Below are positions 1,059 through 38,952 of a stretch of 44,232 bases of DNA, piece by piece. The notes under the pieces are model-generated. The model was not told where the DNA came from, did no database searches, and saw nothing but the letters and a program-made list of their open reading frames with translations. Positions within the stretch are counted from its first letter, which is position 1; each line of letters starts with the position of its first letter. The stretch covers positions 1 to 44,232 of the IMG/VR virus record IMGVR_UViG_3300009159_000004; one strand, given 5' to 3'. A program made the position numbers and the translations under genes. Origin of the DNA: a virus.

Positions 1059-1955
1059 ATGCCTGAGCTGCACTTGCTCCCGGTTCAACCGGGAGTTTTT
1101 TTTAGGGAGCAAGACCACAAGTATTTTTATGAAACTCGACAAGAGCAGATTGAAGTACCATCGTCTTCGCGCATTATTTCACTTGCTGGTGGCAAGGATT
1201 TTGACAAAAGTCGATGGCTTGGTTCCTTGATGCGCAAAGGGCTAAGTAAAATGGGTGCTGAGTATTTCATGGAGCGAGTTAGAGACATTCGCGCTGATGT
1301 TGGTACAAGATTTCATGCCATGGCTGGGCTATCGCTTGGTTCGTTTAGGGAAGCGGAAATGTTGGCAAATTGTCCAAAAGATATTGAAGCAGCCGTAATT
1401 CATTTGTTATGGCTTGAACAGGTTTTTCCTCGCATTGGGAAGGTCTATGTCATTGAAGAGCCAATGATCCATCCAGGCGGCTGCTATGGCTTTACGCCTG
1501 ATCTTGTTGCTGAGGTTGATGGCATTCTTAGTCTTTGTGACTGGAAGAGTAACCAGGCTGAACACTTTGCGGAGCGCTATGAGCGATTGTGTGATTACGC
1601 GCCTGACGATGAGATATTGCGTGGAATTTGTGAACATCTTGCAGAAGTTGACGCTGAGGCCGGCAAGGTGAGAGAGGCAACGGCTCGCGTCCGTGATGGC
1701 TGGCAGATGCAGCAGGGAAGCTATGACTTTGGCCTTGAGGCGGTCCATGGGCTGCGGGTTGAGCGTGGCATCAACTTTATGCTGTCTGTCGATGGCGTTA
1801 AAGAAAGATCCTGGAATCGACCAGACCTTGATCAGGGATGGCTTCAGTTTGCCGGCGGGCTTCTGTTGCACCACCAGCGAGCAACCATGAGTGGTGGCCA
1901 CCCTGTTTTTCAAGCGGCTTTCAATGCGCTCTATCCGTTAATGGGTGCCCGATAG
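1059..1955 (+). CDS. PD-(D/E)XK exonuclease (RecB-like nuclease fold)
   Basis: The 298-residue protein shows the PD-(D/E)XK signature: GFTPDLVAEVDG (Asp 148) followed by LCDWKS (Asp 161, Lys 163), with an upstream GTRFHAMAG helix (residues 82-90) typical of phage RecB-type nucleases. Beside Erf, the expected role is resecting double-stranded ends to 3' single strands for annealing, as in exonuclease/annealing pairs such as lambda Exo-Beta. The ATG at 1059 was chosen because the frame upstream overlaps the previous gene. The opening residues FFREQDHKYFYE, also common in this group, are encoded within and just beyond the terminator hairpin, so the true start must lie at or before it. Confidence 0.85.
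   Translation: MPELHLLPVQPGVFFREQDHKYFYETRQEQIEVPSSSRIISLAGGKDFDKSRWLGSLMRKGLSKMGAEYFMERVRDIRADVGTRFHAMAGLSLGSFREAEMLANCPKDIEAAVIHLLWLEQVFPRIGKVYVIEEPMIHPGGCYGFTPDLVAEVDGILSLCDWKSNQAEHFAERYERLCDYAPDDEILRGICEHLAEVDAEAGKVREATARVRDGWQMQQGSYDFGLEAVHGLRVERGINFMLSVDGVKERSWNRPDLDQGWLQFAGGLLLHHQRATMSGGHPVFQAAFNALYPLMGAR
1077..1103 (+). terminator. Intrinsic terminator inside the start of the exonuclease gene
   Basis: CTCCCGG (1077-1083) pairs perfectly with CCGGGAG (1089-1095) around a five-base loop, and eight T residues follow at once (1096-1103). This is a textbook rho-independent terminator. It lies downstream of the 451-1053 gene but inside codons 7-15 of the exonuclease frame, so it could act as an attenuator that lowers exonuclease relative to Erf, relieved when ribosomes cover it. 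Confidence 0.8.
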
Positions 1956-1957
1956 CG

Positions 1958-1966
1958 TGCTATGCT
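1958..1966 (+). promoter_or_regulatory. Extended -10 promoter for the AbrB-like gene
   Basis: TGC-TATGCT gives an extended -10 about 24 bp upstream of the ATG at 1990, so the transcript would begin near 1973. The same TGCTA-type box precedes several other genes in this genome. No good -35 is visible. Confidence 0.45.
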
Positions 1967-1989
1967 TCTCACTGTCACGCATTCATCCA

Positions 1990-2589
1990 ATGCCAACCAA
2001 GACCAAGGCCAAAACTGACGCCGAACCCGCTTTTATCGAAGAGCTGGACACCGAAAAGCTGGATTCTATTGATTCCGCCGAGGTTGCCGACTCCGCCGAT
2101 GATTTCGGTGATGACGAGGACGATGCTGAGCCCTCTGAAACTGAAGAAACCGAGCGCCACGAACGGCTAGCAGGCAAAGCGCTGCTCGACTTCTACAACG
2201 AAAAAAAAGCCGCTGGTCGGAATCACTACCAAATTGCCTACGACGCCGGCTACCTTACCATTACCAAGAGTGGCCAAGAGCGTGTTATGAAAGCGCCATT
2301 TGATAAGGCGCTTTTGCAAGCTCAAGGTATCGACACTGGCAGTCAAAGCGGTCCCGGTCGTTCTCACGCTGGGTTGACCCAGGCTCGTTGTAGTGGTCAA
2401 GGTATTTTGCTTGTGTCGCAACTGGCGACTCGCCATATTGGCGCAAATCCTGGCGACGTGTTTGAGGTTTCGTATCCCGGCAACGGCCAGATTTTGCTTC
2501 GTCCCACTGGCGAAGTAAAACCAGTTATTCCTAGGAAGCGATCCGAAGAGCAGCCTGGCACTCCTCTCTTGGATGGGGAAACTGTCTAA
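1990..2589 (+). CDS. Cyanobacterial AbrB-like (cyAbrB) DNA-binding regulator
   Basis: The 199-residue product contains the full cyAbrB pattern at residues 59-173: ERLAGKALLDFYNE, then AYDAGYLTITKSGQERV, a helix KALLQAQGID, and the C-terminal strand-swapped DNA-binding hairpin ILLVSQLATRHIGANPGDVFEV ending GQILLRP. Host cyAbrB proteins, found throughout cyanobacteria, regulate carbon and nitrogen metabolism and cell-state transitions. Here the domain is preceded by a very acidic arm (residues 10-58, mostly Asp, Glu, Ser) and followed by a basic tail, both extra relative to the roughly 130-residue host proteins. A second possible ATG at 1945 lies within the end of the exonuclease gene and upstream of the promoter, so 1990 is preferred. 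It may reprogramme host transcription or control phage promoters. Confidence 0.85.
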   Translation: MPTKTKAKTDAEPAFIEELDTEKLDSIDSAEVADSADDFGDDEDDAEPSETEETERHERLAGKALLDFYNEKKAAGRNHYQIAYDAGYLTITKSGQERVMKAPFDKALLQAQGIDTGSQSGPGRSHAGLTQARCSGQGILLVSQLATRHIGANPGDVFEVSYPGNGQILLRPTGEVKPVIPRKRSEEQPGTPLLDGETV

Positions 2590-28612: not shown

Positions 28613-28867
28613 TTATATTTTCTCTTTTTCTAGTGATTCTGCCGGCGGGAGAAATGTGACTGGTCCTTTCTTCGTCCAGATTAGTCGCCAGTTTTCAACA
28701 TGTTCTTCAGGTGCTTGCATAGTGTACCAAAGATGACCACAACCTTCGCAGCGCCGCCGCCTTGCGCGACTGCCACATGCTGTTGTGCGTGTTTCTACAA
28801 TAATAATTTGATGGGAAGATGCGCAGTTAGGGTTTGTGCATTTTTCGAGATTGATTTGTTTACCCAT
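28613..28867 (-). CDS. Zinc ribbon protein, NrdR/Ogr-like
   Basis: The 84-residue product carries two Cys pairs, KCTNPNC (residues 9-15) and CEGCG (38-42), separated by VETRTTACGSRARRRRC. This closely recalls the N-terminal zinc ribbon of NrdR (CPxCG...DSR...RRRRCxxCxxRFTT), and phage Ogr/Delta activators have related folds. NrdR binds promoters of ribonucleotide reductase genes, and the next genes in this operon are nucleotide-related (dCTP deaminase family). It has no ATP-cone domain, so it could be a stand-alone DNA-binding regulator. Confidence 0.65.
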   Translation of the reverse strand: MGKQINLEKCTNPNCASSHQIIIVETRTTACGSRARRRRCEGCGHLWYTMQAPEEHVENWRLIWTKKGPVTFLPPAESLEKEKI

Positions 28868-29145: not shown

Positions 29146-29661
29146 TTAGCCCTTAGACGCGGTGACGGTTGCATCATTATTATACCTGCCGGTAACTGCA
29201 TAAGACCGGCGTGGGATAGAATCCATAAAAGAAAACTTCATCTGTCCAATTTTGAGCCCTGGGTAAAGACCAATCCAATGAAGTTGGCGAACATTCTTAA
29301 GTTCAAGTGTTAATCTTGACCCGCTCCACCCTGGGTCTGCAAATCCGGCCATAAGGTGTTGCAATCCTTCCCTTGCGCGAGAAGATTTAAGTATAAACTG
29401 ACCTTCAATGTCTTCTGGAATGTTAAAAATTGGCTCAGCTTCAGCTAGTATAAATTGGCCTGGCATCATTCTGTATGGATCTGACTCTGTATGTCTTGCA
29501 ATAGGATACGGAATAAGTCTTGGCCCTTCAGCAGACTCGATCAGGATGTTTGAGCCCAGGCGCAAATCTAGCGATGCCGGGTTGAGCAATAAAGGGTCAT
29601 ATGGTGTGACCATGCCAGCCATGCAGAGTTCGTGGATCTGAAAGTCAGCAAGAGTGCCCAT
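29146..29661 (-). CDS. dcd: dCTP deaminase / dUTPase family protein
   Basis: The 171-residue protein carries the family motifs: NPASLDLRLGSNI near residue 27-39, FILKSSRAREGLQHLMAGFADPGWSG (about 88-113, with SSRAREG matching the nucleotide-binding SSxARxG), LTLELKN with the catalytic Glu, and LYPGLKIGQMKF. It should convert dCTP to dUTP (or act on dUTP), feeding thymidylate synthesis for phage DNA. Start 29661 is preferred to 29685 because an extended -10 at 29692-29684 would initiate near 29677. Confidence 0.85.
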   Translation of the reverse strand: MGTLADFQIHELCMAGMVTPYDPLLLNPASLDLRLGSNILIESAEGPRLIPYPIARHTESDPYRMMPGQFILAEAEPIFNIPEDIEGQFILKSSRAREGLQHLMAGFADPGWSGSRLTLELKNVRQLHWIGLYPGLKIGQMKFSFMDSIPRRSYAVTGRYNNDATVTASKG

Positions 29662-29683
29662 GGTACGTTGATTGTTGCAGGTC

Positions 29684-29692
29684 ATTTTATCA
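29684..29692 (-). promoter_or_regulatory. Extended -10 promoter of the dCTP deaminase operon
   Basis: TGA-TAAAAT on the minus strand, about 23 bp upstream of the ATG at 29661. A rightward TATGAT at 29718-29723 faces away from it, making a divergent promoter pair. Confidence 0.5.
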
Positions 29693-31134: not shown

Positions 31135-31186
31135 ATTCTAGGGTCAGATGTTACGCTGACGGTCTGACCCGTAACAGTTTGCAACG
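31135..31186 (-). promoter_or_regulatory. Cassette promoter copy 1
   Basis: On the minus strand the 19-bp element reads CGTTGCAAACTGTTACGGG (31186-31168), then 27 bp, then a -10 box TAGAAT (31140-31135). The spacer holds an 8-bp inverted repeat, GGGTCAGA / TCTGACCC. The element starts 8 bp after the stop of the 31194-31493 gene. It serves the two small genes ending at 30931 and 30691. Confidence 0.6.
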
Positions 31187-31193
31187 TGGCACG

Positions 31194-31493
31194 CTAAGCG
31201 CAGGATGCTAACAATTCTAACCATTGCTCCCTAATTTCTTTAGCAAGGTCTCTACTGTTACTGCGCCTATAAATGCTAACGACCGCCCAGTGAGGGTAAA
31301 AATAAGCGGCGCCACTATAAGAATCATCTCCCGTCTGATAACCCCACTCTCCATTATCATTGATTGCACAAGTTAAATCTATCCTGGGAAGTTCATCATT
31401 TTCATCCTTGTAATCATCGCAGATGTGAGGCTTAATAGACTTTATTAAACTGGATAATTCTTTGATAGTTGGAAGCTTGAGAGTTTGTGCCAT
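31194..31493 (-). CDS. Conserved small protein of unknown function
   Basis: The 99-residue product contains KPHICDDYKDENDELPRIDL, then GEWGYQTGDDSYSGAAYFYPHWAVVSIYRRSNSRDLAKEI. The W-YQTGDxSYxGxAYxYPHWAVVxIxRRSNSR block looks strongly conserved and recalls proteins found in cyanobacterial phages and genomes; the function is unknown. It lies 41 bp downstream of its neighbour, and its leader holds three CCCATCAT repeats just before the ATG. Confidence 0.7.
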   Translation of the reverse strand: MAQTLKLPTIKELSSLIKSIKPHICDDYKDENDELPRIDLTCAINDNGEWGYQTGDDSYSGAAYFYPHWAVVSIYRRSNSRDLAKEIREQWLELLASCA

Positions 31494-31501
31494 TGTTTTA
31501 G

Positions 31502-31526
31502 TGGGATGATGGGATGATGGGATGAT
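31502..31526. repeat. Triple octanucleotide repeat in a gene leader (copy A)
   Basis: Three tandem GGGATGAT units (CCCATCAT on the coding minus strand) lie directly upstream of the 31194-31493 gene, ending about 9 bases before its ATG. An equivalent repeat precedes the next gene upstream. Confidence 0.8.
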
Positions 31527-31533
31527 GTTAAAT

Positions 31534-31827
31534 CTATGATGCCAGTAGATTATTTAAGTCATCATAAAATACTGATGCTCTGCAAGCATAAGCATAGTCT
31601 AAAATTCTACCCATAGCAACGTAGGCATTTTTCATCTCTATTTCAGCGTCAATATACACACCACTAGCGTAATGGTTACTCATACAAACAATCCAGCTAT
31701 GATTAAATTTTTCCCTTTGCATTAAAAGCTGTTTGGTTAGCTGTTCTTCAGTCAAAAATGCTAAGTCACAAGGACCAGAATCACAAGGGCTAGAAGGCTT
31801 GACTGTTTGACCTGTAGAATGTTGCAT
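31534..31827 (-). CDS. Small unknown protein
   Basis: The 97-residue product (LAFLTEEQLTKQLLMQREKF, then NHSWIVCMSNHYASGVYIDAEIEMKNAYVAMGRILDYAYAC) is helical with several Cys residues. I do not recognise a family. ATG 31827 is preferred to 31863 because the longer version would translate the CCCATCAT repeats. It is the first gene behind cassette promoter copy 2, after a leader of about 150 bases that includes a palindrome, GAAAGGATCATCCTTTC. Confidence 0.6.
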   Translation of the reverse strand: MQHSTGQTVKPSSPCDSGPCDLAFLTEEQLTKQLLMQREKFNHSWIVCMSNHYASGVYIDAEIEMKNAYVAMGRILDYAYACRASVFYDDLNNLLAS

Positions 31828-31831
31828 TGCG

Positions 31832-31858
31832 ATGATGGGATGATGGGATGATAGGATA
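31832..31858. repeat. Triple octanucleotide repeat in a gene leader (copy B)
   Basis: Imperfect GGGATGAT units repeat three times directly before the ATG at 31827, at nearly the same distance as copy A before 31493. The two genes are otherwise unrelated, so the leader, not the protein, is shared. Confidence 0.8.
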
Positions 31859-31981
31859 ATCAAAAATTAACCCCTAACACTAATCAAGTCGCCGTCAAGC
31901 ACTACTAAGAAAGGATGATCCTTTCACCTAGGTAGTCGCAACGTTGTTCTGGCATGATGCTGTCTGCTTTGGGACTTCCTG

Positions 31982-32034
31982 ATCCTACCATGGCTTAACA
32001 CGGTGGGACCATGGGCGCTTAACTTTTAGTAACA
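31982..32034 (-). promoter_or_regulatory. Cassette promoter copy 2
   Basis: The element TGTTACTAAAAGTTAAGCG (32034-32016) is followed after 28 bp by TAGGAT (31987-31982). The spacer begins and ends with CCATGG, forming a 6-bp stem. The element starts 7 bp after the stop of the broken gene at 32042. Confidence 0.65.
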
Positions 32035-32041
32035 ATAAGGA

Positions 32042-32282
32042 TTAACGGTCGATTAAATAGAGTAAATAGTCTTTAGCAAGATCCGATGCGGTACAATAAT
32101 TGAAGCATCTTTCCTGCCATATCTTTATAGCCTCGCTCTCGTTTAGGGGTTTTGCTTTATTATTGGGCGGTCGATTAAGTAAAATGTGCGGAAACCGTTC
32201 GGGTCCGCCATCGCTCGGTCCGTGCCAGACAAGCCAGAATGGAGAAAAAGTGCTTTAGCCCTGACTTTATTGTACTTTTCAT
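32042..32282 (-). pseudogene. Small gene apparently broken by a frameshift
   Basis: From ATG 32282 the frame reads MKSTIKSGLKHFFSI and soon stops (32175). A +1 shifted frame, open from 32254 to 32042, reads SPFWLVWHGPSDGGPERFPH and continues ILLNRPPNN and AIKIWQERCFNYCTASDLAK, clearly protein-like but without any ATG, GTG or TTG. The switch point lies near a five-T run (CACTTTTTCTCC). A one-base indel, real or from sequencing, or a programmed shift would restore a protein of about 78 residues. Confidence 0.5.
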
Positions 32283-32310
32283 GGCATGAATGAATGAATG
32301 AATGAATGAA
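32283..32310. repeat. Tetranucleotide microsatellite (CATT)n before a start codon
   Basis: About seven consecutive CATT units (ATGA/TGAA on the plus strand) end directly at the ATG of the 32282 gene. Shorter CATT runs occur before neighbouring starts at 32446, 33143 and 33444. Confidence 0.8.
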
Positions 32311-32314
32311 TGGA

Positions 32315-32352
32315 AGACTAAAGTCTGCCGACCCAGTGGTAGACTTTAGTCT
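32315..32352. repeat. Perfect 12-bp inverted repeat
   Basis: AGACTAAAGTCT (32315-32326) and AGACTTTAGTCT (32341-32352) pair perfectly across 14 bases. Each arm is itself nearly palindromic (AGACT..AGTCT). It overlaps the 3' end and stop of the 42-residue frame at 32318, so it may end or stabilise that transcript, or bind a dimeric protein. Confidence 0.75.
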
Positions 32353-32446
32353 GCCATGTTAAGGCATTCGCGTGCCGCCAGGCGGCCTTAATGTCTTGAC
32401 GGCAGGAGATTAACTCCCACCGATTAGCGCGAATAATGATTAGCAT
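32318..32446 (-). CDS. Very small unknown protein (42 residues)
   Basis: The frame reads MLIIIRANRWELISCRQDIK and AAWRHANALTWQTKVYHWVG, with Trp/Arg-rich composition typical of short phage regulators. It lies 21 bp after the stop of the 32468 gene, with CATTCATTCATT in that gap, and is probably cotranscribed with it. No Shine-Dalgarno is visible. Family unknown. Confidence 0.45.
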   Translation of the reverse strand: MLIIIRANRWELISCRQDIKAAWRHANALTWQTKVYHWVGRL

Positions 32447-32467
32447 GATTAAGTAAATGAATGAATG

Positions 32468-32842
32468 CTAAATAACAGGCTTGGCGATACTAGAGTACAA
32501 TTCGCTAATCCGACCCTTTGCGTCGGCAGCATTGTAGACATACAGTGAGCAACCCCTAGGGTCCGATTGGTGATAGACAGATAAGCCGTATTTACCAGCA
32601 ATCTTACGGGCAGACTCTAAGGCTTGATTCTCCTTGTCTACAATTACTGGACCCTTTTTAGTATAAGTGCCGTAATTGTCCAGGTAATAACGTCTGGGCG
32701 TTTCCTCCTTGTTACCTTCCCATTGGATGGCGCCATTACATTCGTCTTCGTTCCATTGGTGGATAATTTTTCCTAGACTTTTGAGGGTTTTCCATTCTGC
32801 CGTAGTGAATGGCGCCGTTTTTGCTGTTGTCGTTGTGGCCAT
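32468..32842 (-). CDS. Conserved small protein of unknown function
   Basis: The 124-residue product starts MATTTTAKTAPFTTAEWKTL and contains GKIIHQWNEDECNGAIQWEG, RRYYLDNYGTYTKK and a C-terminal ARKIAGKYGLSVYHQSDPRGCSLYVY. The YHQxDPRGCxLY ending looks highly conserved and recalls proteins in cyanobacterial phages; no function is known. It is transcribed from cassette promoter copy 3. Confidence 0.7.
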   Translation of the reverse strand: MATTTTAKTAPFTTAEWKTLKSLGKIIHQWNEDECNGAIQWEGNKEETPRRYYLDNYGTYTKKGPVIVDKENQALESARKIAGKYGLSVYHQSDPRGCSLYVYNAADAKGRISELYSSIAKPVI

Positions 32843-32869
32843 GGTGGGCGGTGCGTGGTTGACTTGTGA

Positions 32870-32922
32870 ATGATAGCGCAGAACTTAGGCGACCGTGGCT
32901 GGACGCTTAACAATTAGTAACA
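32870..32922 (-). promoter_or_regulatory. Cassette promoter copy 3
   Basis: The element TGTTACTAATTGTTAAGCG (32922-32904) is followed after 28 bp by TATCAT (32875-32870). The stop codon TAA of the upstream gene (32907) lies inside the element, so coding and regulatory sequence overlap. Confidence 0.65.
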
Positions 32923-33143
32923 GTGGGCGATTCGCAGCATGAATAAAAGAGTGACAAAATTCCCTCCCCTCCATCGCCATAAGCTTTAGCCAGGCTAATT
33001 GCATTACGATTGAGCTGAAATACAATATGCGGGCCATTGGGCCAATTTTCGACAACATAAGATTTGTTTATCCAATACACCTTAATACCCGACTTTACAT
33101 CTGCAATAATGTCCTCTAGTGATTCGTAATGTTTGCTGGCCAT
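32907..33143 (-). CDS. Small unknown protein
   Basis: The 78-residue product (MASKHYESLEDIIADVKSG, then KVYWINKSYVVENWPNG) follows a pattern I associate with small phage proteins: YxxLEEIxxDVKxGKxVYWxNxxYxV. Function unknown. ATG 33143 has AGAGG 9 bases upstream and a CATTCATTC leader. The last residues (TVTNC) are encoded by the cassette element itself. Confidence 0.65.
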   Translation of the reverse strand: MASKHYESLEDIIADVKSGIKVYWINKSYVVENWPNGPHIVFQLNRNAISLAKAYGDGGEGILSLFYSCCESPTVTNC

Positions 33144-33173
33144 GAATGAATGCCTCTGTGTGAATGCCCCTGC

Positions 33174-33226
33174 ATAGTAGCGCATGAATGAAACGCTTGG
33201 CTATGGACGCTTAACAGTTTGCAAAG
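33174..33226 (-). promoter_or_regulatory. Cassette promoter copy 4
   Basis: The element ends CTTTGCAAACTGTTAAGCG (33226-33208) and is followed after 28 bp by TACTAT (33179-33174). It starts 2 bp after the stop of the 33229-33444 gene. Confidence 0.65.
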
Positions 33227-33228
33227 GT

Positions 33229-33444
33229 TCACAAAATGCCGAGCATAGCGTTACGCTCAGCCCTTAACACGGTGCAAGCATGGTAGGCTTTATCCAAACT
33301 GCGACAACAGGCTAACATTTTGCCGCCGCAGAAATAGCAGCAATACATTGGCACGCTATAGCCGCAGTACATTAAATGAATACTATACCTTTCATCGCCA
33401 TCTAAATGCCAAACACGACCAACTGAATGTGTTTTTTTGTCCAT
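33229..33444 (-). CDS. Small Cys-rich protein of unknown function
   Basis: The 71-residue product (MDKKTHSVGRVWHLDGDERY, then MYCCYFCGGKMLACCRSLDKAYHAC) has seven Cys in about 30 residues, including CCxxC and CC pairs, which suggests a zinc-binding ribbon. AGAGG lies 6 bases before the ATG. It is a single-gene cassette behind promoter copy 5. Confidence 0.65.
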   Translation of the reverse strand: MDKKTHSVGRVWHLDGDERYSIHLMYCGYSVPMYCCYFCGGKMLACCRSLDKAYHACTVLRAERNAMLGIL

Positions 33445-33472
33445 GAATGCCTCTTTTGTGAATGACTCCCAT

Positions 33473-33525
33473 ACAATACCATGCTAACAAGAGCAGTGGC
33501 TATGAATGCTTAACATTTAGTTGCA
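33473..33525 (-). promoter_or_regulatory. Cassette promoter copy 5
   Basis: The element TGCAACTAAATGTTAAGCA (33525-33507) is followed after 28 bp by TATTGT (33478-33473). It lies between the probable small terminase gene and the Cys-rich gene. Confidence 0.6.
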
Positions 33526-33533
33526 TGAATGCC

Positions 33534-33637
33534 AGTCTCAGCTGAGACTCATTGCGCTGCAAGGATTCTCAATAAGACTCTGAATGAGTCTCAACCGTCT
33601 CAATCGTGAGACTGGCCCCTGTCTCGGTTGAGACTGG
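33534..33637. repeat. TGAGAC inverted-repeat cluster at the end of the probable terS gene
   Basis: AGTCTCA-GC-TGAGACT (33534-33549) is a perfect palindrome. GTCTCA-ATCG-TGAGAC (33597-33612) and GTCTC-GGTT-GAGAC (33621-33634) follow, and ATGAGTCTC lies between them. Part of the cluster encodes the C-terminus of the 33569-34123 protein. Related sites recur at 34341-34373 and 34585-34623. Confidence 0.8.
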
Positions 33638-34123
33638 CTGCGATTCGCCGGCAGCGATGGACGGCTGCTCGATTGTCACACTCAGCACAAGGTCCTCATC
33701 TGACAGGCCGGAGCTTTCACGCAGCTCCCCAGCGATCTCGCCTGCCCGGTCGAGCCCCTTCAGTGCCGCGCCCCAGTGCTGGGCCTGGATAGCCCCCTGA
33801 ATGACCTGCTGGCGACTGGCAGCGACCATGGCCCTACGCAGCTCCGGCGGAGCTGTCTCAGCGGCGCACAGGGCACGCTCAGCGCGGCGTTGAATGCGAG
33901 TGAGCAAGCGACTGTCTAGGCATGAATGAGCCTCTCCTAGCTTCCACCTAACTTGAATAGGCAATAAGCCTGAAGCATAAAGTTCAAAGGCTTCTTGTGT
34001 TAATGCTTCAATGTCTGGAGCTTCTTGATTATCGCTAACATCCCATGATGCCTGCCAAGCATTATGCGTGCGCAATAATCTTTCGCTATCTGGCCGGCAG
34101 TGAATGGGAAGCTGCGAATCCAT
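33569..34123 (-). CDS. Probable terminase small subunit
   Basis: The 184-residue protein has an N-terminal helical part with a possible helix-turn-helix (IEALTQEAFELYASGLLPIQVRWKLGEAHS), then a helical core (RRAERALCAAETAPPELRRAMVAASRQQVIQGAIQAQHWGAALKGL), then DRAGEIAGELRESSGL and an acidic tail. This order (DNA-binding helices, oligomerisation helices, GALKxLxRxGEIxG) resembles small terminases. The gene is flanked and overlapped by TGAGAC inverted repeats, as expected if the packaging site lies in or near terS. It is 5 kb from terL and on the other strand, which is unusual, so the call needs structural comparison. Confidence 0.5.
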   Translation of the reverse strand: MDSQLPIHCRPDSERLLRTHNAWQASWDVSDNQEAPDIEALTQEAFELYASGLLPIQVRWKLGEAHSCLDSRLLTRIQRRAERALCAAETAPPELRRAMVAASRQQVIQGAIQAQHWGAALKGLDRAGEIAGELRESSGLSDEDLVLSVTIEQPSIAAGESQPVSTETGASLTIETVETHSESY

Positions 34124-34340
34124 AGGAACTTTATCTGTTGCTAAATCATACCGCTACGCGCAAACCGCTTGCGTCTTCACTGGCCGGCGTAAGGAAAATG
34201 GTCATATAGGTTCAGCTAATGCAGGAGATTTTCGACCCTCCTCTTCCATTGCCTCAAAAGACCGGCAGGAAGAGGATTAGGTAGAAGAAACTTAGAATGA
34301 GAACTTTTTTTCTGAATTTTGTCTTTTATGTATCCATTTA

Positions 34341-34373
34341 TACAGTCTCAATGAGACTCACTTTAAGACTGTA
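34341..34373. repeat. Double inverted repeat with TGAGACT palindrome
   Basis: AGTCTCA-A-TGAGACT (34344-34358) is palindromic around one base. TACAGTCT (34341-34348) and AGACTGTA (34366-34373) form an outer 8-bp inverted repeat that overlaps it. Confidence 0.75.
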
Positions 34374-34426
34374 TCATCACGATACCTTTTTCCCCTTGAT
34401 TTACCTATTAGCCGAGTAATCTCCTT

Positions 34427-34547
34427 TTAAGTTTCCGCCATAAACTGTTGCACCGCAAGGCTTTTGGGTAGGAGGAAAAGAATATATCACTTATCTCCTC
34501 GTTAAGTTTCCGCCATAGATCGTTGCGCCGCAAGGCTTTTAAGTAGA
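34427..34547. repeat. 75-bp period tandem duplication
   Basis: About 45 bp starting TTAAGTTTCCGCCATA at 34427 recur from 34502 with a few substitutions; both copies contain CCGCAAGGCTTTT. On the minus strand one frame reads KPCGATVYGGNL in one copy and KPCGATIYGGNL in the other, differing mainly at synonymous positions. The left copy has a 28-codon frame starting GTG with AGGAG five bases before it; the right copy has a stop upstream. Confidence 0.75.
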
Positions 34548-34584
34548 TCAATGGTGGTTTTTCCACAGATAAGCCAGCCTGATC

Positions 34585-34623
34585 AGTCTCAAGTTGAGAC
34601 AGCGGTAAGACGGTTGAGACTGG
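34585..34623. repeat. TGAGAC sites, right cluster
   Basis: AGTCTCAA-G-TTGAGACA (34585-34601) is an inverted repeat. CGGTTGAGACTGG (34611-34623) repeats the half-site found at 33626-33638. Confidence 0.75.
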
Positions 34624-34655
34624 ATGGCCCCAACCGTCATTTTTACCTTGCCGGC

Positions 34656-34964
34656 TTATTCTCCAAGCGTAATATACTGACCGGAAGATGATACTTGAAA
34701 GTTCTCACCTTTTCTTGCTTGTATTTTTTTAGCGTCTAGCATTGCGGCGGCTAGCAATTCTTTGTTAGCGTTTTTGGCTGGCTCAACAACAAGTGTCTTG
34801 AAGGAAAGGAAAGCTACTTTTTTGTAGTCTCCATGCTCTTCCTTTGTACGATCAGAATATGCAATCCCGCCAGGGTAAATGCAGGCAAAAAGCCTGTTAT
34901 CATTGGTGTGTTTAATCTTGGGTTGAAGTACGGGAAACCGCGTAAAACTTTGTAGTTCGTTCAT
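34656..34964 (-). CDS. Small unknown protein
   Basis: The 102-residue product (PVLQPKIKHTNDNRLFACIY, then KKVAFLSFKTLVVEPAKNAN and KELLAAAMLDAKKIQARKGE) has a beta-beta-alpha flavour and an NFQVSSSGQYITLGE ending. I do not recognise it. Its ATG is preceded at 8 bases by a hairpin, CCGGC-AACAA-GCCGG, nearly identical to the one before the upstream gene, so the two share a leader type. It is probably cotranscribed from cassette promoter copy 6. Confidence 0.65.
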   Translation of the reverse strand: MNELQSFTRFPVLQPKIKHTNDNRLFACIYPGGIAYSDRTKEEHGDYKKVAFLSFKTLVVEPAKNANKELLAAAMLDAKKIQARKGENFQVSSSGQYITLGE

Positions 34965-34972
34965 TGGGTGAT

Positions 34973-34987
34973 CCGGCTTGTTGCCGG
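34973..34987 (-). promoter_or_regulatory. Leader hairpin before the 34964 start
   Basis: CCGGC-AACAA-GCCGG on the minus strand lies 8 bases before the ATG, followed by ATCACCCA. The 35174 gene has the same arrangement. Confidence 0.55.
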
Positions 34988-35015
34988 CAGAATGGTGGGT
35001 TAGGTGTGGCCAGGA

Positions 35016-35174
35016 TTATCTAATTGGCGTAGGCTCTGGCCCATGTACCTCCCTGGCCCAATCTTTGCCCCATATATATGCCGCCCAATGCCACGAACAT
35101 TTGCCATGGTCAGGCTTAAGCCCGGAAATTGAAGTCCTACCGCAAACAGTACAAGGCTGTTTAGGTTTGCTCAT
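35016..35174 (-). CDS. Small zinc-finger-like protein (52 residues)
   Basis: The frame reads MSKPKQPCTVCGRTSISGLK, PDHGKCSWHWAAYIWGKDWA and REVHGPEPTPIR. CxxC (residues 8-11), then His 23, Cys 26 and His 29 could form a zinc site. It has a clear leader hairpin and follows cassette promoter copy 6 by about 40 bases. Its family is unknown but the Cys/His spacing makes chance coding unlikely. Confidence 0.6.
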   Translation of the reverse strand: MSKPKQPCTVCGRTSISGLKPDHGKCSWHWAAYIWGKDWAREVHGPEPTPIR

Positions 35175-35182
35175 CGAGTGAT

Positions 35183-35198
35183 CCGGCTTGTTTGCCGG
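35183..35198 (-). promoter_or_regulatory. Leader hairpin before the 35174 start
   Basis: CCGGC-AAACAA-GCCGG on the minus strand, followed by ATCACTCG and the ATG. It differs from the 34973-34987 copy by one extra loop base. Confidence 0.55.
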
Positions 35199-35216
35199 TG
35201 GCGTTTGAACAAATTA

Positions 35217-35279
35217 AGCATAGCATGAAAATGGGCCAGCGCAGCACGCTAGCCCAAAAACGCTTAACACTTTGCAAGG
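35217..35279 (-). promoter_or_regulatory. Cassette promoter copy 6
   Basis: The element CCTTGCAAAGTGTTAAGCG (35279-35261) is followed after 38 bp by an extended -10, TGC-TATGCT (35222-35217). Measured at 28 bp only a poor box exists. The spacer contains a 9-bp stem, GGGCTAGCG / CGCTGGCCC (one G-T pair), followed by ATTTTC, which could also terminate the upstream transcript. Confidence 0.6.
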
Positions 35280-35286
35280 TGGCGGA

Positions 35287-35919
35287 TCAATCGCGTACCT
35301 GTATTGGCATTAGAAGGTATTCCATTTTTACTTTCTCCAAGCCTTCACAATCAACCGTAGCGGTAAATAGCATTGAATTACATGAACCATTGCGCTCCAT
35401 GGTAACGCAATCATTCCATGAGTAAAGTTTAACAACAGCCATAAAGTCTGCGAGATAGGCAGCGTTAAAGCTGATAGGCTTATCGGTGTCTGTGCCATAC
35501 TGACTTGGCCATATCTGATCTGAATTGGGATAAAGAGTAGTAGGATTTATGTTTGCATAGGTATCTGCCGCAGCTTGATATTCACATTGCCACATTGCCG
35601 GCAATGATTGCATGTATTCTGTCAACTTTTTGCCGCCATGAATAGCGGCATCACTAAATGGCGCATCAAGTCTGGCAATCCTGGCGTATGGGACACGTTT
35701 CTTAAACGCTTTACCTGACAGCAGCAGTGGCTGATTGCATACCCATTTAGGGTCTGGGCATGTAACACGAAAAGCGCGGTGTCCATCAGTTGAATTGATG
35801 ATAATTCCACTATCTGCCGGTCTAATAAGAATGCCGGTTAGTGTTTGCTTGGCAGGATCTAGCGAAGTAAACTGCGCTGCCGCATGTAACATTTGAACGG
35901 GAAGAGTGGCGCTTGTCAT
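35287..35919 (-). CDS. DnaN-like sliding clamp homologue
   Basis: The 210-residue protein resembles a shortened DNA polymerase III beta clamp: LTGILIRPADSGIIINSTDGHRAFRV matches the clamp's LxxVxI...TDxHRL region. The C-terminus has SFNAAYLADFMAVVK, then MLFTATVDCEG and the end KMEYLLMPIQVRD, like the clamp's final YLIMPxRx strand. With about half to two thirds of the normal length it may be a two-domain clamp. It could tether the host polymerase to phage DNA, since no phage polymerase is seen. It is a single-gene cassette behind promoter copy 7. Confidence 0.6.
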   Translation of the reverse strand: MTSATLPVQMLHAAAQFTSLDPAKQTLTGILIRPADSGIIINSTDGHRAFRVTCPDPKWVCNQPLLLSGKAFKKRVPYARIARLDAPFSDAAIHGGKKLTEYMQSLPAMWQCEYQAAADTYANINPTTLYPNSDQIWPSQYGTDTDKPISFNAAYLADFMAVVKLYSWNDCVTMERNGSCNSMLFTATVDCEGLEKVKMEYLLMPIQVRD

Positions 35920-35945
35920 TGTGGTTGGGTTGTTTGAACAACGTA

Positions 35946-36008
35946 ATCATACAGCATTCAAGCGCCAACGTGCCAAGCTCAGCCATAAACGCTTAACATT
36001 TTGTCACA
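35946..36008 (-). promoter_or_regulatory. Cassette promoter copy 7
   Basis: The element TGTGACAAAATGTTAAGCG (36008-35990) is followed after 38 bp by TATGAT (35951-35946); TTGAAT also occurs at 28 bp (35961-35956). The element overlaps the C-terminal codons and stop of the 36004 gene. Confidence 0.6.
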
Positions 36009-36282
36009 AAGCGGCATTCTGGATAAACTCATCAAACGACATACCTTTTTTGGTCCTAGAAGACGTTGAGCATTCATCCATGACTCTCACTATAACTTTG
36101 GCCTTAATACGTCTTCTCTCGCTTTCAACACTATCTGCTGTTATCGCTATTTGTTGCGATATTTTTTGATACCAGCGAAAATCGGAATAGAATATCTGAT
36201 TGACTCTAACTTTTTTGAATGGCACAAACCTAAGCTTTAGGTTCCTAATCTTAGTGCCAGGCGCAATTAGGTTAGGCATCAT
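36004..36282 (-). CDS. Small basic unknown protein
   Basis: The 92-residue product (MMPNLIAPGTKIRNLKLRFVPFKKVRV, then DSVESERRRIKAKVIVRVMD) is basic with alternating hydrophobic residues. Family unknown. It overlaps the end of the HNH endonuclease gene by 11 bases, which suggests translational coupling. Confidence 0.6.
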   Translation of the reverse strand: MMPNLIAPGTKIRNLKLRFVPFKKVRVNQIFYSDFRWYQKISQQIAITADSVESERRRIKAKVIVRVMDECSTSSRTKKGMSFDEFIQNAAL

Positions 36283-36751
36283 CGGAATCCTCTAGCGCCG
36301 CAAGCCGCCTGGCCGATACGGCCTCGGCTTTAGTGCCAAAAACGCCTAACTCGACTCCATCATATTTTGCGTTCCAGTCGCCGGTAACACGGTCGCGGGA
36401 CAGATCGCGCCGATGCCAGCCAGGCCGTTTTCCAGGCCGCCCTGAAAACCGCTTGTAGTCCGGCCTGGAATCTGACAGGTATAAATTGTCGAGCCTTAGA
36501 TTGAATGGATCACCGTCGCGGCAGGCCACATGCTGCGGCGCAGGATCGACCCGATAGGCCAGCGCCCACGCAACAGCAGCGGCCTTTCGCTGCCGGCCAT
36601 CGACAAATACATGCGGAATGCCGTCACGATTGCCGCCGGCTGGATCACCGAATTTATGCGGTCCACGCTGGACAATGTATGTAATCGCTCCAGTGACTCG
36701 ATTGTAGTGAAAGAGCGACTGAAGCACGCTTAGCGGTGGTAATGCTGTCAT
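36272..36751 (-). CDS. HNH endonuclease with AP2-like C-terminus
   Basis: The 159-residue protein begins with the HNH_3-type core: LFHYNRVTGAITYI, then GIPHVFVDGRQRKAAAVAWALAY, HVACRDGDPFNLRLDNLYL (the conserved GDPxNxRxxNL). The C-terminal part WNAKYDGVELGVFGTKAEAVSARRLAAL resembles the AP2 DNA-binding module common in phage homing endonucleases. GC-richer codon use than its neighbours suggests a mobile gene inserted into the array. It overlaps both neighbours by 4 and 11 bases. Confidence 0.85.
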   Translation of the reverse strand: MTALPPLSVLQSLFHYNRVTGAITYIVQRGPHKFGDPAGGNRDGIPHVFVDGRQRKAAAVAWALAYRVDPAPQHVACRDGDPFNLRLDNLYLSDSRPDYKRFSGRPGKRPGWHRRDLSRDRVTGDWNAKYDGVELGVFGTKAEAVSARRLAALEDSDDA

Positions 36752-37074
36752 ACTAAAGATGGATTACGTTCTGCTGCGCTAAGGCTGGGTTCTGGATCGT
36801 AGCTTGTTGGAATTGGGCAGAGTTCTTCAACGTCCATTTCAAATGGCTCATCTTTTATCCATTTATCTATCCTTGCGTTTTCAAGCAAAGCTGACAATTC
36901 CCAGATTGAATTTACTTCAAGAAATTCATGGATTGGATAAAAGAAATAACCATCTTCTCTTACTTTTTGTTCGCCTTGCCGTATTTCAACGCTGAACGGC
37001 GCGACAAGCGGTTGAATTTGCTCGGATAACGCAGATCCAGAGGGGATTCTTTGAAAGTTAATAGTCTTTTCCAT
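36748..37074 (-). CDS. Small acidic unknown protein
   Basis: The 108-residue product (MEKTINFQRIPSGSALSEQI, FYPIHEFLEVNSIWELSALL, DEPFEMDVEELCPIPTSYDP) is acidic toward the C-terminus. Family unknown. It overlaps the HNH gene by 4 bases. Its first 115 bases overlap the end of the membrane protein frame at 36960-37178 in another frame. Confidence 0.6.
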   Translation of the reverse strand: MEKTINFQRIPSGSALSEQIQPLVAPFSVEIRQGEQKVREDGYFFYPIHEFLEVNSIWELSALLENARIDKWIKDEPFEMDVEELCPIPTSYDPEPSLSAAERNPSLV

Positions 37075-37178
37075 GGTAAAAGAAAGAAAATGCCAATGAT
37101 GAGAAATAAAGCTGAGGCTTGAAGTGCTACGCTAAATGCGCTAAGCGCAAATGCGACACCGGCAATTATTCGTTTCAT
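36960..37178 (-). CDS. Small membrane protein overlapping the next gene
   Basis: The 72-residue frame opens MKRIIAGVAFALSAFSVALQ and ASALFLIIGIFFLLPWKRLL, one or two membrane spans (or a signal peptide plus a span), followed by a basic tail (KFNRLSRRSALKYGKANKK). The ATG overlaps the stop of the upstream gene as ATGA, strong evidence of coupling. The basic tail is encoded in the region shared with the 36748-37074 gene, so two reading frames would be used there. Confidence 0.5.
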   Translation of the reverse strand: MKRIIAGVAFALSAFSVALQASALFLIIGIFFLLPWKRLLTFKESPLDLRYPSKFNRLSRRSALKYGKANKK

Positions 37179-37489
37179 GTTTTGGCGGATGAAACTGGTT
37201 GACTGTTTGGCTCTTCCTCGTCAGGTAAAACCGAAAGAGAATAGTTTGATCCTTCGGCACCCAATACAAGAGCGTTCATGGCTCGCTGTGAACCGAAGCA
37301 CAAAACTTTGTGTACGTTACCACAGGAAAACCATAGATTAAAGCGTGGTTCTTTTGTCATTTTTCCATTGAAGCAAAAATAGCAAAGATGCAAAACATTG
37401 TCGAGATTATAGAACAGAGAATAACTAAATCTTGAAGCACGGTCCAGTGATTTGAAATGACCATTCGTGGTTCGTTGTTGGTTGAACAA
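37175..37489 (-). CDS. Unknown protein with possible TTG start
   Basis: The 104-residue frame (LDRASRFSYSLFYNLDNVLH, LCYFCFNGKMTKEPRFNLWF, SQRAMNALVLGAEGSNYSLS) contains CYFC and an acidic Ser/Pro-rich end. No ATG exists near its beginning; TTG at 37489 lies 6 bases after the expected transcript start of promoter copy 8. An internal ATG (MTKEPRF) would give a 62-residue product. Family unknown. Confidence 0.55.
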   Translation of the reverse strand: MFNQQRTTNGHFKSLDRASRFSYSLFYNLDNVLHLCYFCFNGKMTKEPRFNLWFSCGNVHKVLCFGSQRAMNALVLGAEGSNYSLSVLPDEEEPNSQPVSSAKT

Positions 37490-37493
37490 TGTA

Positions 37494-37554
37494 AGTATAA
37501 CGTGTTAGGTGGCCCCTGTCACGCTGCGTGTCAACCTCTTAACATTTAGTAACA
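37494..37554 (-). promoter_or_regulatory. Cassette promoter copy 8
   Basis: The element TGTTACTAAATGTTAAGAG (37554-37536) is followed after 36 bp by TATACT (37499-37494), which also has GTGACA 17 bp upstream as a -35. A weaker TAACAC box is at 28 bp. The stop codon of the helicase (37546) lies inside the element. Confidence 0.6.
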
Positions 37555-38952
37555 TGGCGCTACTTCGCCGCAATGGCCATAGACCAGGCCGAGAGCACGC
37601 TCGACCCTGCGGCGCTGATCATTGTTAAGGCCCTCTGGGCTATTGGCCCATGGCCATAAGATTGCGGAATTAAAACCTTTTACCTCAACAAGGTATAAAT
37701 TTTTCTTGGCAGACTTAACACGCTTTTTAATTCTTTCTTCATATATTTCCTCAATCGACAACTCCTTAAGTTCTCTCTTGTCACCTTTGGCAACTAGGAT
37801 TCGCTCTTGCTGTTCTGGTTTTTCAATTACTTCCTTATTTTCGTCAAGTTGAAACTTTGCTTTTTTGAATTTTACCTTACCTTCCAGCGTCCAGTCGATA
37901 GGTTCGTGAGGCAAAGGTAAACACTCCCAGCAATTACCATGATCAATAATCAATGCTACCTTGTCGGGATTAGATGGATCAGTGCGCAACACCCTTCCAA
38001 TTAGTTGTTTCCATAAACGTAGTGAGCGTGTAGGTCTAATTAACTGTAAACACGTTGCCGCCGGCAAGTCCAAACCTTCATCAACTAATGCAACTGATAC
38101 AATTACTTGTAGGTCGCCAGCGGTAAAACGCTCAAAGGCTATATCTCTATCACGCTCCGAAGTGGTGCCAATAATGACTTCAGCAGTAATACCTTGCGCT
38201 TTGTACTCAGCTGCTATAATATATGCGTGTTCTACACTAATGGTAACTGTAATTGTTGGTTGCAAGTCTGGATTAAAGTGCAGCAAATCTCGTAAAAAGT
38301 CGCCCTGTACGCTGACAATGCGCTCTTCAATCTCTTCTTTTTTGTAATCCCCACCTCTTATGGAGACGCCTTCTGTATCTACTACGGCAGTATCACCACC
38401 AAACATTTTGTATTTACATAACGAACCTTCTTCCATTAACTGTCTAGGCTGCGGTCCAAGAATTAGTTTAGTGATGCCAAACTTGCCAAGGCCGGCACCA
38501 GTAGGGGTAATTGGCGTAGCGCTGGCGCCAGCAAAGAATGATGGCTGCATTTCACGAATAATTTCCTGATATGTCTTGGCTTGGATGTGATGCGCTTCAT
38601 CTAACAGCAATACCCTGCCGCGAAAGGTAGAGATTGCATCGCGTCTTCTGGCAAGTGTTGGCATCATTGTTACCATAATGCCTTTATCTTCTGTAGCACG
38701 CTTAGCCGTATAAAAGCCTACTGACTCGTTACAATGGCTGCGGCATGACTTAGCGAGCTGCTTAATGATTTCGTTACGATGAGCGGCCAGTACAACTTGA
38801 TAACCCCATTCACGGTAAAGCCGCGTTATTTCGGCCATCATCACTGTTTTACCGCTGCCGGTAGGAGACACCAGACAAGGTGCCCCGCCTTCGTTCATGT
38901 GCGCGATAGTTTCGCACACTAACGGATTTTGGTATCCCCTAAGATTAAACAT
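37546..38952 (-). CDS. SF2 DEAD/DEAH-box helicase
   Basis: The 468-residue helicase has Q-motif-like LRGYQ (residues 4-8), Walker A SPTGSGKT (29-36), DEAH (118-121) and SAT (144-146), then in the second lobe TITVTISVEHAYIIAAEY, FERFTAGDLQVIVSVALVDEGLDLP (motif V) and QLIGRVLR (motif VI). It belongs to the RadD/UvsW-like branch found in many phages, which unwind branched DNA or R-loops and promote recombination-dependent replication. A basic C-terminal region follows. It is coupled to the 38945 gene by an 8-base overlap. Confidence 0.9.
   Translation of the reverse strand: MFNLRGYQNPLVCETIAHMNEGGAPCLVSPTGSGKTVMMAEITRLYREWGYQVVLAAHRNEIIKQLAKSCRSHCNESVGFYTAKRATEDKGIMVTMMPTLARRRDAISTFRGRVLLLDEAHHIQAKTYQEIIREMQPSFFAGASATPITPTGAGLGKFGITKLILGPQPRQLMEEGSLCKYKMFGGDTAVVDTEGVSIRGGDYKKEEIEERIVSVQGDFLRDLLHFNPDLQPTITVTISVEHAYIIAAEYKAQGITAEVIIGTTSERDRDIAFERFTAGDLQVIVSVALVDEGLDLPAATCLQLIRPTRSLRLWKQLIGRVLRTDPSNPDKVALIIDHGNCWECLPLPHEPIDWTLEGKVKFKKAKFQLDENKEVIEKPEQQERILVAKGDKRELKELSIEEIYEERIKKRVKSAKKNLYLVEVKGFNSAILWPWANSPEGLNNDQRRRVERALGLVYGHCGEVAPCY

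Follow-up and report, generated by a model that had tools for sequence, protein, structure and literature searches.

We analysed a 44,232-bp virus record (IMG/VR record IMGVR_UViG_3300009159_000004; the window hereafter means this whole stretch of DNA) in which a run of small genes is interspersed with eight copies of a 19-bp element. This array probably constitutes a phage promoter regulon that is read by a sequence-specific activator. The elements precede -10 boxes at helix-phased distances with no -35, hairpins lie in the spacers, and the genes between elements are shuffled among relatives as units. From this pattern we infer that the sites are promoters, that a factor activates them, and that the hairpins terminate transcription. 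The window is an uncultured cyanosiphovirus. Its host is most likely a cyanobacterium, because the closest isolate relatives of its portal protein are from cyanophages (S-2L, S-H1, KBS-S-2A, and MED4 siphoviruses) and because it encodes a protein resembling cyAbrB, a cyanobacterial family.

A first-pass annotation of this DNA had placed the element on the minus strand, with 5' ends at 31186, 32034, 32922, 33226, 33525, 35279, 36008, and 37554. We recovered all eight copies, as well as the -10 hexamers listed for them (TAGAAT, TAGGAT, TATCAT, TACTAT, TATTGT, TATGCT, TATGAT, and TATACT). Allowing up to three mismatches, the window contains exactly eight matches in a single orientation, compared with a mean of 0.21 in shuffled sequences, and scanning the window with a matrix built from the eight copies did not reveal a ninth site clearly above noise. 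The element was said to stand at a fixed spacing from its -10 box, yet there is no single value. Instead, there are two classes: the five copies from 31186 to 33525 have gaps of 27-28 bp, and the three from 35279 to 37554 have gaps of 36-38 bp. Gaps of 28 and 38 bp are one helical turn apart. Neither the second spacing class nor the spacer hairpins described below had been mentioned. Every copy was also said to sit at or just past a stop codon, twice with the stop inside the element. The stop is in fact inside it three times (37554, 36008, and 32922), and most other copies are 3-10 bp past one, but for the copy at 33525 the nearest likely end of a gene, at 33569, lies ~44 bp before it. The copies and their boxes are as follows.

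37536..37554, minus strand: element copy 1, TGTTACTAAATGTTAAGAG, overlapping the stop codon of a helicase gene
37494..37499, minus strand: -10 TATACT of copy 1, gap 36
35990..36008, minus strand: element copy 2, TGTGACAAAATGTTAAGCG, containing a stop codon
35946..35951, minus strand: -10 TATGAT of copy 2, gap 38
35261..35279, minus strand: element copy 3, CCTTGCAAAGTGTTAAGCG
35217..35222, minus strand: -10 TATGCT of copy 3, gap 38
33507..33525, minus strand: element copy 4, TGCAACTAAATGTTAAGCA
33473..33478, minus strand: -10 TATTGT of copy 4, gap 28
33208..33226, minus strand: element copy 5, CTTTGCAAACTGTTAAGCG
33174..33179, minus strand: -10 TACTAT of copy 5, gap 28
32904..32922, minus strand: element copy 6, TGTTACTAATTGTTAAGCG, containing a stop codon
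32870..32875, minus strand: -10 TATCAT of copy 6, gap 28
32016..32034, minus strand: element copy 7, TGTTACTAAAAGTTAAGCG
31982..31987, minus strand: -10 TAGGAT of copy 7, gap 28
31168..31186, minus strand: element copy 8, CGTTGCAAACTGTTACGGG, with the GTTACGGG form retained in relatives
31135..31140, minus strand: -10 TAGAAT of copy 8, gap 27, immediately 3' of a GGGTCAGA...TCTGACCC inverted repeat

A TANNNT box stands at the class gaps in 8 of 8 window copies, while the same test slid along the array reached a maximum of 4 (mean 0.64); because the window gaps were picked post hoc, this result is more a description than a test. The relatives provide the test. Seven relatives found via their helicase have the element wherever the contig extends to the array. 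Distant relatives, found via a zinc-ribbon protein, also have the element, down to 38-40% zinc-ribbon identity. Many copies are letter-perfect although the proteins of the relatives are just 30-60% identical. Scanning all of IMG/VR for the element followed by TANNNT yielded 24 stretches at a distance of 28 bp and 10 at 38 bp; the element is present in all of these stretches, with several copies in most. Loci L379-L396, at 43-45% zinc-ribbon identity, have no element and belong to another phage type, and there is no element array in cyanophages S-2L, S-H1, KBS-S-2A, MED4-184, S-SRP02, or S-LBS1.

We assembled 105 distinct sites from this phage group, which are related rather than independent. 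The initial consensus was revised to YSTTRCWAA(C/A)TGTTAAGC(G/A) over 53 sites (the window and the first relatives), and the 105-site set agrees with it. TANNNT occurs at 28 bp in 51 sites, 27 bp in 12, 29 bp in one, 38 bp in 30, and 35-37 bp in nine, with none at 30-34 bp. When CANNNT is included, all 105 sites have a box at 27-29 or 35-38 bp. Spacers of unrelated sequence are still exactly 28 or 38 bp. The -10 is extended (TGn ahead of the box) at 67 of the 105 sites, and no -35 was found above chance, with a mean match of 2.51 of 6 versus 2.31 in shuffled spacers. We rejected ordinary -35 plus -10 promoters for lack of a -35 beyond chance; a single 10-of-12 match, at the first promoter, falls where the spacers of relatives differ. 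One conserved gene, f0, separates the two classes in the arrays compared, with gaps of 35-38 bp upstream of it and gaps of 27-28 bp downstream.

33569..34123, minus strand: conserved gene f0 (184 aa), where the 36-38 class gives way to the 27-28 class in the compared arrays

A motif-model scan of the window and related phages, which had been proposed as a check, finds the motif kept in relatives and the spacing kept as two classes. Judged from sequence, the element-to--10 layout is the anatomy of activator-dependent promoters, because it combines two helix-phased distances with extended -10s and no -35 beyond chance. The suggestion of a co-regulated promoter set is well supported by this comparative anatomy, in which element, orientation, two phased spacings, and extended -10 recur in relatives. 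With modest confidence, the element itself may be two half-sites on one helix face, GTTAC-N5-GTTAA, forming a weak tandem repeat with a 10-bp period. The column repeat at 10 bp in the main site set was equalled by 3.3% of column shuffles, and in one group (L357 and L358) GTTAA occurs twice, ten bases apart, once in each half of forms such as GTTAATAAGTGTTAAGC.

We propose that a sequence-specific DNA-binding activator would occupy the 19-bp element, whose centre would be near -50 relative to the predicted start when the gap is 28 and near -60 when it is 38. From the same helix face, it would direct the host RNA polymerase, carrying the main sigma factor, to a -10 that is usually extended and has no -35. 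The spacer hairpins, some of them intrinsic terminators, would stop the transcript of the preceding unit. Element, hairpin, -10, and gene(s) would thus form a unit that is largely insulated, owing to its own promoter and to the hairpins ending upstream transcripts. Recombination at the common elements would gain, drop, and reorder such units.

Short asymmetric sites in a single orientation, at gene ends, and nearly absent from hosts could also belong to a repressor or elongation block in a temperate phage. The stoperators of mycobacteriophage L5 are sites of this kind, where the phage repressor binds and blocks elongation. However, an elongation block would not be expected to keep a strict distance, in two helix-phased classes, from a -10 that lacks a -35. 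Among the window proteins scanned, which covered part of the open reading frames (ORFs), there was no recognisable integrase or repressor. We therefore regard a stoperator-like role as improbable.

Spacer folding relative to shuffles of the same spacer gave mean z-scores of -2.3 for 28-bp spacers and -2.0 for 38-bp spacers, compared with -0.3 for coding controls. Textbook terminators occur among the 38-bp spacers, for example AGCCGGACCTAGCAAGTCCGGCTTTTTT and GGCGAGCCTAGCAAGCTCGCTTTTTT, whose stems differ with both arms changed in concert. The clearest hairpin in the window is in the spacer of copy 3.

35232..35256, minus strand: terminator-like hairpin TGGGCTAGCG-TGCTG-CGCTGGCCCA followed by TTTT (z -5.2)

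The position of the element at gene ends, directly ahead of hairpins, raises the alternative that element and hairpin together act in RNA as a conserved 3'-end, processing, or termination signal, with the -10 likeness being secondary. In one spacer type, GTTAAGCG within the element is able to pair with a downstream CGCTTAAC. Yet the distance to the -10 is kept despite differing hairpin sequence and position, and several spacers lack a significant hairpin, making an RNA-level signal very improbable.

The proposal that genes could be added or lost as promoter-gene units is supported by units that are permuted and duplicated in relatives. In support, too, synteny breaks more often at elements than inside units, as judged from crude gene calls. 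Element-bounded gene families vary in order, running f21-f27, f5, f18 in L012; f5, f21-f27 in L010; and f5, f18, f21 in L153. One pair of element-spacer types is duplicated in L010. The right-hand neighbour was of the same family in 73 of 360 cases (20%) across an element versus 275 of 640 (43%) inside a unit. At L012:14998, the start of one spacer type is joined to the end of another. Homologous recombination at the shared elements can explain the unit shuffling. The phage encodes an Erf-like annealing protein and a RuvC-like protein.

Several points weigh against a regulon of activated promoters. The -10 hexamers are AT-rich and were first picked by eye, and the 105 sites share ancestry rather than being independent. 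Part of the spacers have no significant hairpin, and in the whole window neither terminator-like nor sigma-70-like sites are in excess over shuffles. The synteny comparison came from crude ORF calls without phylogenetic correction.

As to which protein would read the element, we lean slightly toward a phage protein. A phage-encoded regulator is a serious possibility, a host regulator of the OmpR type such as RpaB is a lesser one, and something else is unlikely. The window offers two candidates.

1945..2589, plus strand: cyAbrB-like protein, candidate regulator (PF14250, E 3e-5, just below the curated cut-off), conserved in array phages
28613..28867, minus strand: NrdR-like zinc ribbon, candidate regulator (PF22811, E 0.0011, below the curated cut-off), present in 12 of 12 array contigs

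Tentatively, the cyAbrB-like protein (1945-2589), the zinc ribbon (28613-28867), or an unrecognised phage protein would activate the units, as MotA activates the middle promoters of T4. The element is essentially restricted to the phage group, and both candidates are conserved across array phages. Several of the L357 and L358 copies have the same TTAC to TTAA change, a pattern expected under co-evolution with a phage factor or under gene conversion. The cyAbrB-like protein was found in long array-phage contigs and not in S-2L, S-H1, KBS-S-2A, MED4-184, or S-SRP02. However, such co-occurrence is weak evidence because array phages have most genes in common, and cyAbrB proteins are known mainly as low-specificity DNA binders. 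The zinc ribbon has an invariant RRRRC..C, with relatives also in S-SRP02 and at phage loci without elements, which weakened it as an element-specific partner. AlphaFold models of the two candidates were of low confidence (mean pLDDT 65 and 55).

The host alternative is that the element is a variant of HLR1, the RpaB binding site, and that RpaB activates the units as it does photosystem I genes, linking phage transcription to light and redox. The HLR1 box is KTTACAWW-N2-KTTACAWW, and its activating window is about -66 to -45 (PMC13421787, PMC9241938). As at RpaB/HLR1 promoters, the array has half-sites starting with KTTA at 10-bp spacing, upstream of the core promoter near the activating position, and a -35 is dispensable. 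The 10-bp spacing of GTTAC-N5-GTTAA has a column-shuffle p of about 0.03, and one diverged group has GTTAA in both halves. The element is predicted at -59..-41 or -69..-51, in line with the activating HLR1 window of -66..-45. Canonical HLR1 had 12 matches versus 2 for the control in 15 picocyanobacterial genomes, mostly upstream of hli-like genes. Eight HLR1 matches just upstream of hli-like genes have KTTACANNCTGTTA (CT before the second GTTA), as does the commonest phage form, and the conserved site upstream of psaA is GTTACAAAGGTTTAATCC, although it is oriented opposite to the element.

Set against this likeness, the second half-site is GTTAAG rather than KTTACA, at nearly invariant positions, and the consensus CTTACAAA-CT-GTTAAGCG fits 11 of the 16 specified HLR1 positions, 4 of 8 in the second half. 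The element core had 2 matches in 300 Cyanobiaceae genomes versus about 25 for the reversed control. In a phylum-wide set of 292 genomes it had 24 matches, compared with about 15 for the control, and no genome had more than three. Because the core occurs just twice in 300 picocyanobacterial genomes, we rejected the exact element as a host regulon motif in the genomes sampled. In the complete genome of Synechococcus RCC307, none of the top matrix matches falls at a photosynthesis gene, and intergenic DNA shows no enrichment of KTTAC-N5-KTTAA. We found no link between cyanophage promoters and RpaB or the element in our literature library, which is incomplete. Activation by RpaB is thus doubtful, and it is somewhat more doubtful still that cyanophages run the whole modular array from variant HLR1-type sites, with the host light/redox regulator setting small-gene expression unit by unit.

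A separate pattern, TTACWAANNKTTAAKC, retrieved psaA sites in five hosts, but these matches are not independent evidence because the pattern was written after psaA had been seen. In several Cyanobium-type genomes (e.g., G003:C6:216444-216459), GTTACAAAGGTTTAATCC stands ~30 bp before a TATACT upstream of psaA, in reverse orientation, and is possibly a local HLR1/RpaB site.

Phage promoter arrays with a shared site are already known. In T4 middle promoters, a MotA box of 9-10 bp is centred at -30, 12 +/- 1 bp from the -10, and TGn is present in about half (PMC2988021). As in the array, a site specific to the phage recurs many times ahead of a host-type -10 without a -35, at scattered phage genes. 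The array differs in that its element is 19 bp long and its gaps to the -10, 27-38 bp in two phased classes, are outside the MotA spacing; no MotA or AsiA relative was seen. In cluster K mycobacteriophages, the SAS (GGGATAGGAGCCC) lies at the ribosome-binding site and start codons, and the ESAS contains an inverted repeat with a -35 and -10 (PMC3203893, PMC11373665). Both systems consist of short repeats that are rare in the host, share one orientation, and precede small genes of varied families in the non-structural half; the ESAS contains putative promoters. In contrast, the array element lies ahead of a -10, at 27-38 bp, rather than at the start codon, has no -35, and differs in sequence and layout.

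The late promoters of phage P2 resemble the proposed layout of the array in having an activator site near -55, a host -10, and no -35; they rely on a small zinc-binding phage activator, Ogr. P2 sites are dyads at late genes, however, and a role for the zinc ribbon at the array element is only a candidate one. Phage morons are small genes, each carrying its own promoter and terminator, that are gained and lost as units. They are single insertions with unrelated promoters, whereas the array as a whole has one common operator. The literature searched yielded no system that combines a 19-bp operator near -50/-60, two phased classes, hairpins in the spacers, and shuffling of units.

These results provide a concrete, testable promoter code for an uncultured cyanophage group. 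They also offer a clear example of a phage region assembled from promoter-gene units that can be exchanged for one another, and many of these units have a hairpin built in. Because the two spacing classes are one helical turn apart, the geometry between activator and polymerase is open to direct testing. If host RpaB reads the element, phage gene expression would be connected to photosynthetic state. If a phage protein reads it, the array would supply a new activator and promoter set for cyanobacteria.

The array occupies the stretch from the helicase gene to a dCTP-deaminase-like gene, and the array half of the window gave zero megablast matches against phage records. Genes at its borders and within it include the following.

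37546..38952, minus strand: helicase, final gene ahead of the array
36272-36751: HNH endonuclease, an array gene
35287..35919, minus strand: unit 2 gene, a RusA-like or clamp-like protein (phrog_3007 1.5e-12, phrog_947 6.7e-5)
29146-29685: dCTP-deaminase-like gene, the other border of the array

Many GTCTCA / TGAGAC repeats occur at 33560-34680, inside and downstream of gene f0 (33569-34123). By eye, f0 looks like a small terminase subunit, and the repeat region is possibly a packaging or replication site. A repeat of the form AAAAGCCTTGCGG..CAAC....TATGGCGGAAACTTAA is present in two copies in a non-coding stretch at 34460-34545 (minus strand), and a GCCGGCAAACAAGCCGGATCAC-like repeat lies ahead of two small genes at 34985-35200 (minus strand). 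Micro-repeats CATTCATTCATG and CATCCCATCATCCCATC stand ahead of start codons at ~31525, 31840, 32310, and 33165 (minus strand), in leaders without a clear Shine-Dalgarno sequence.

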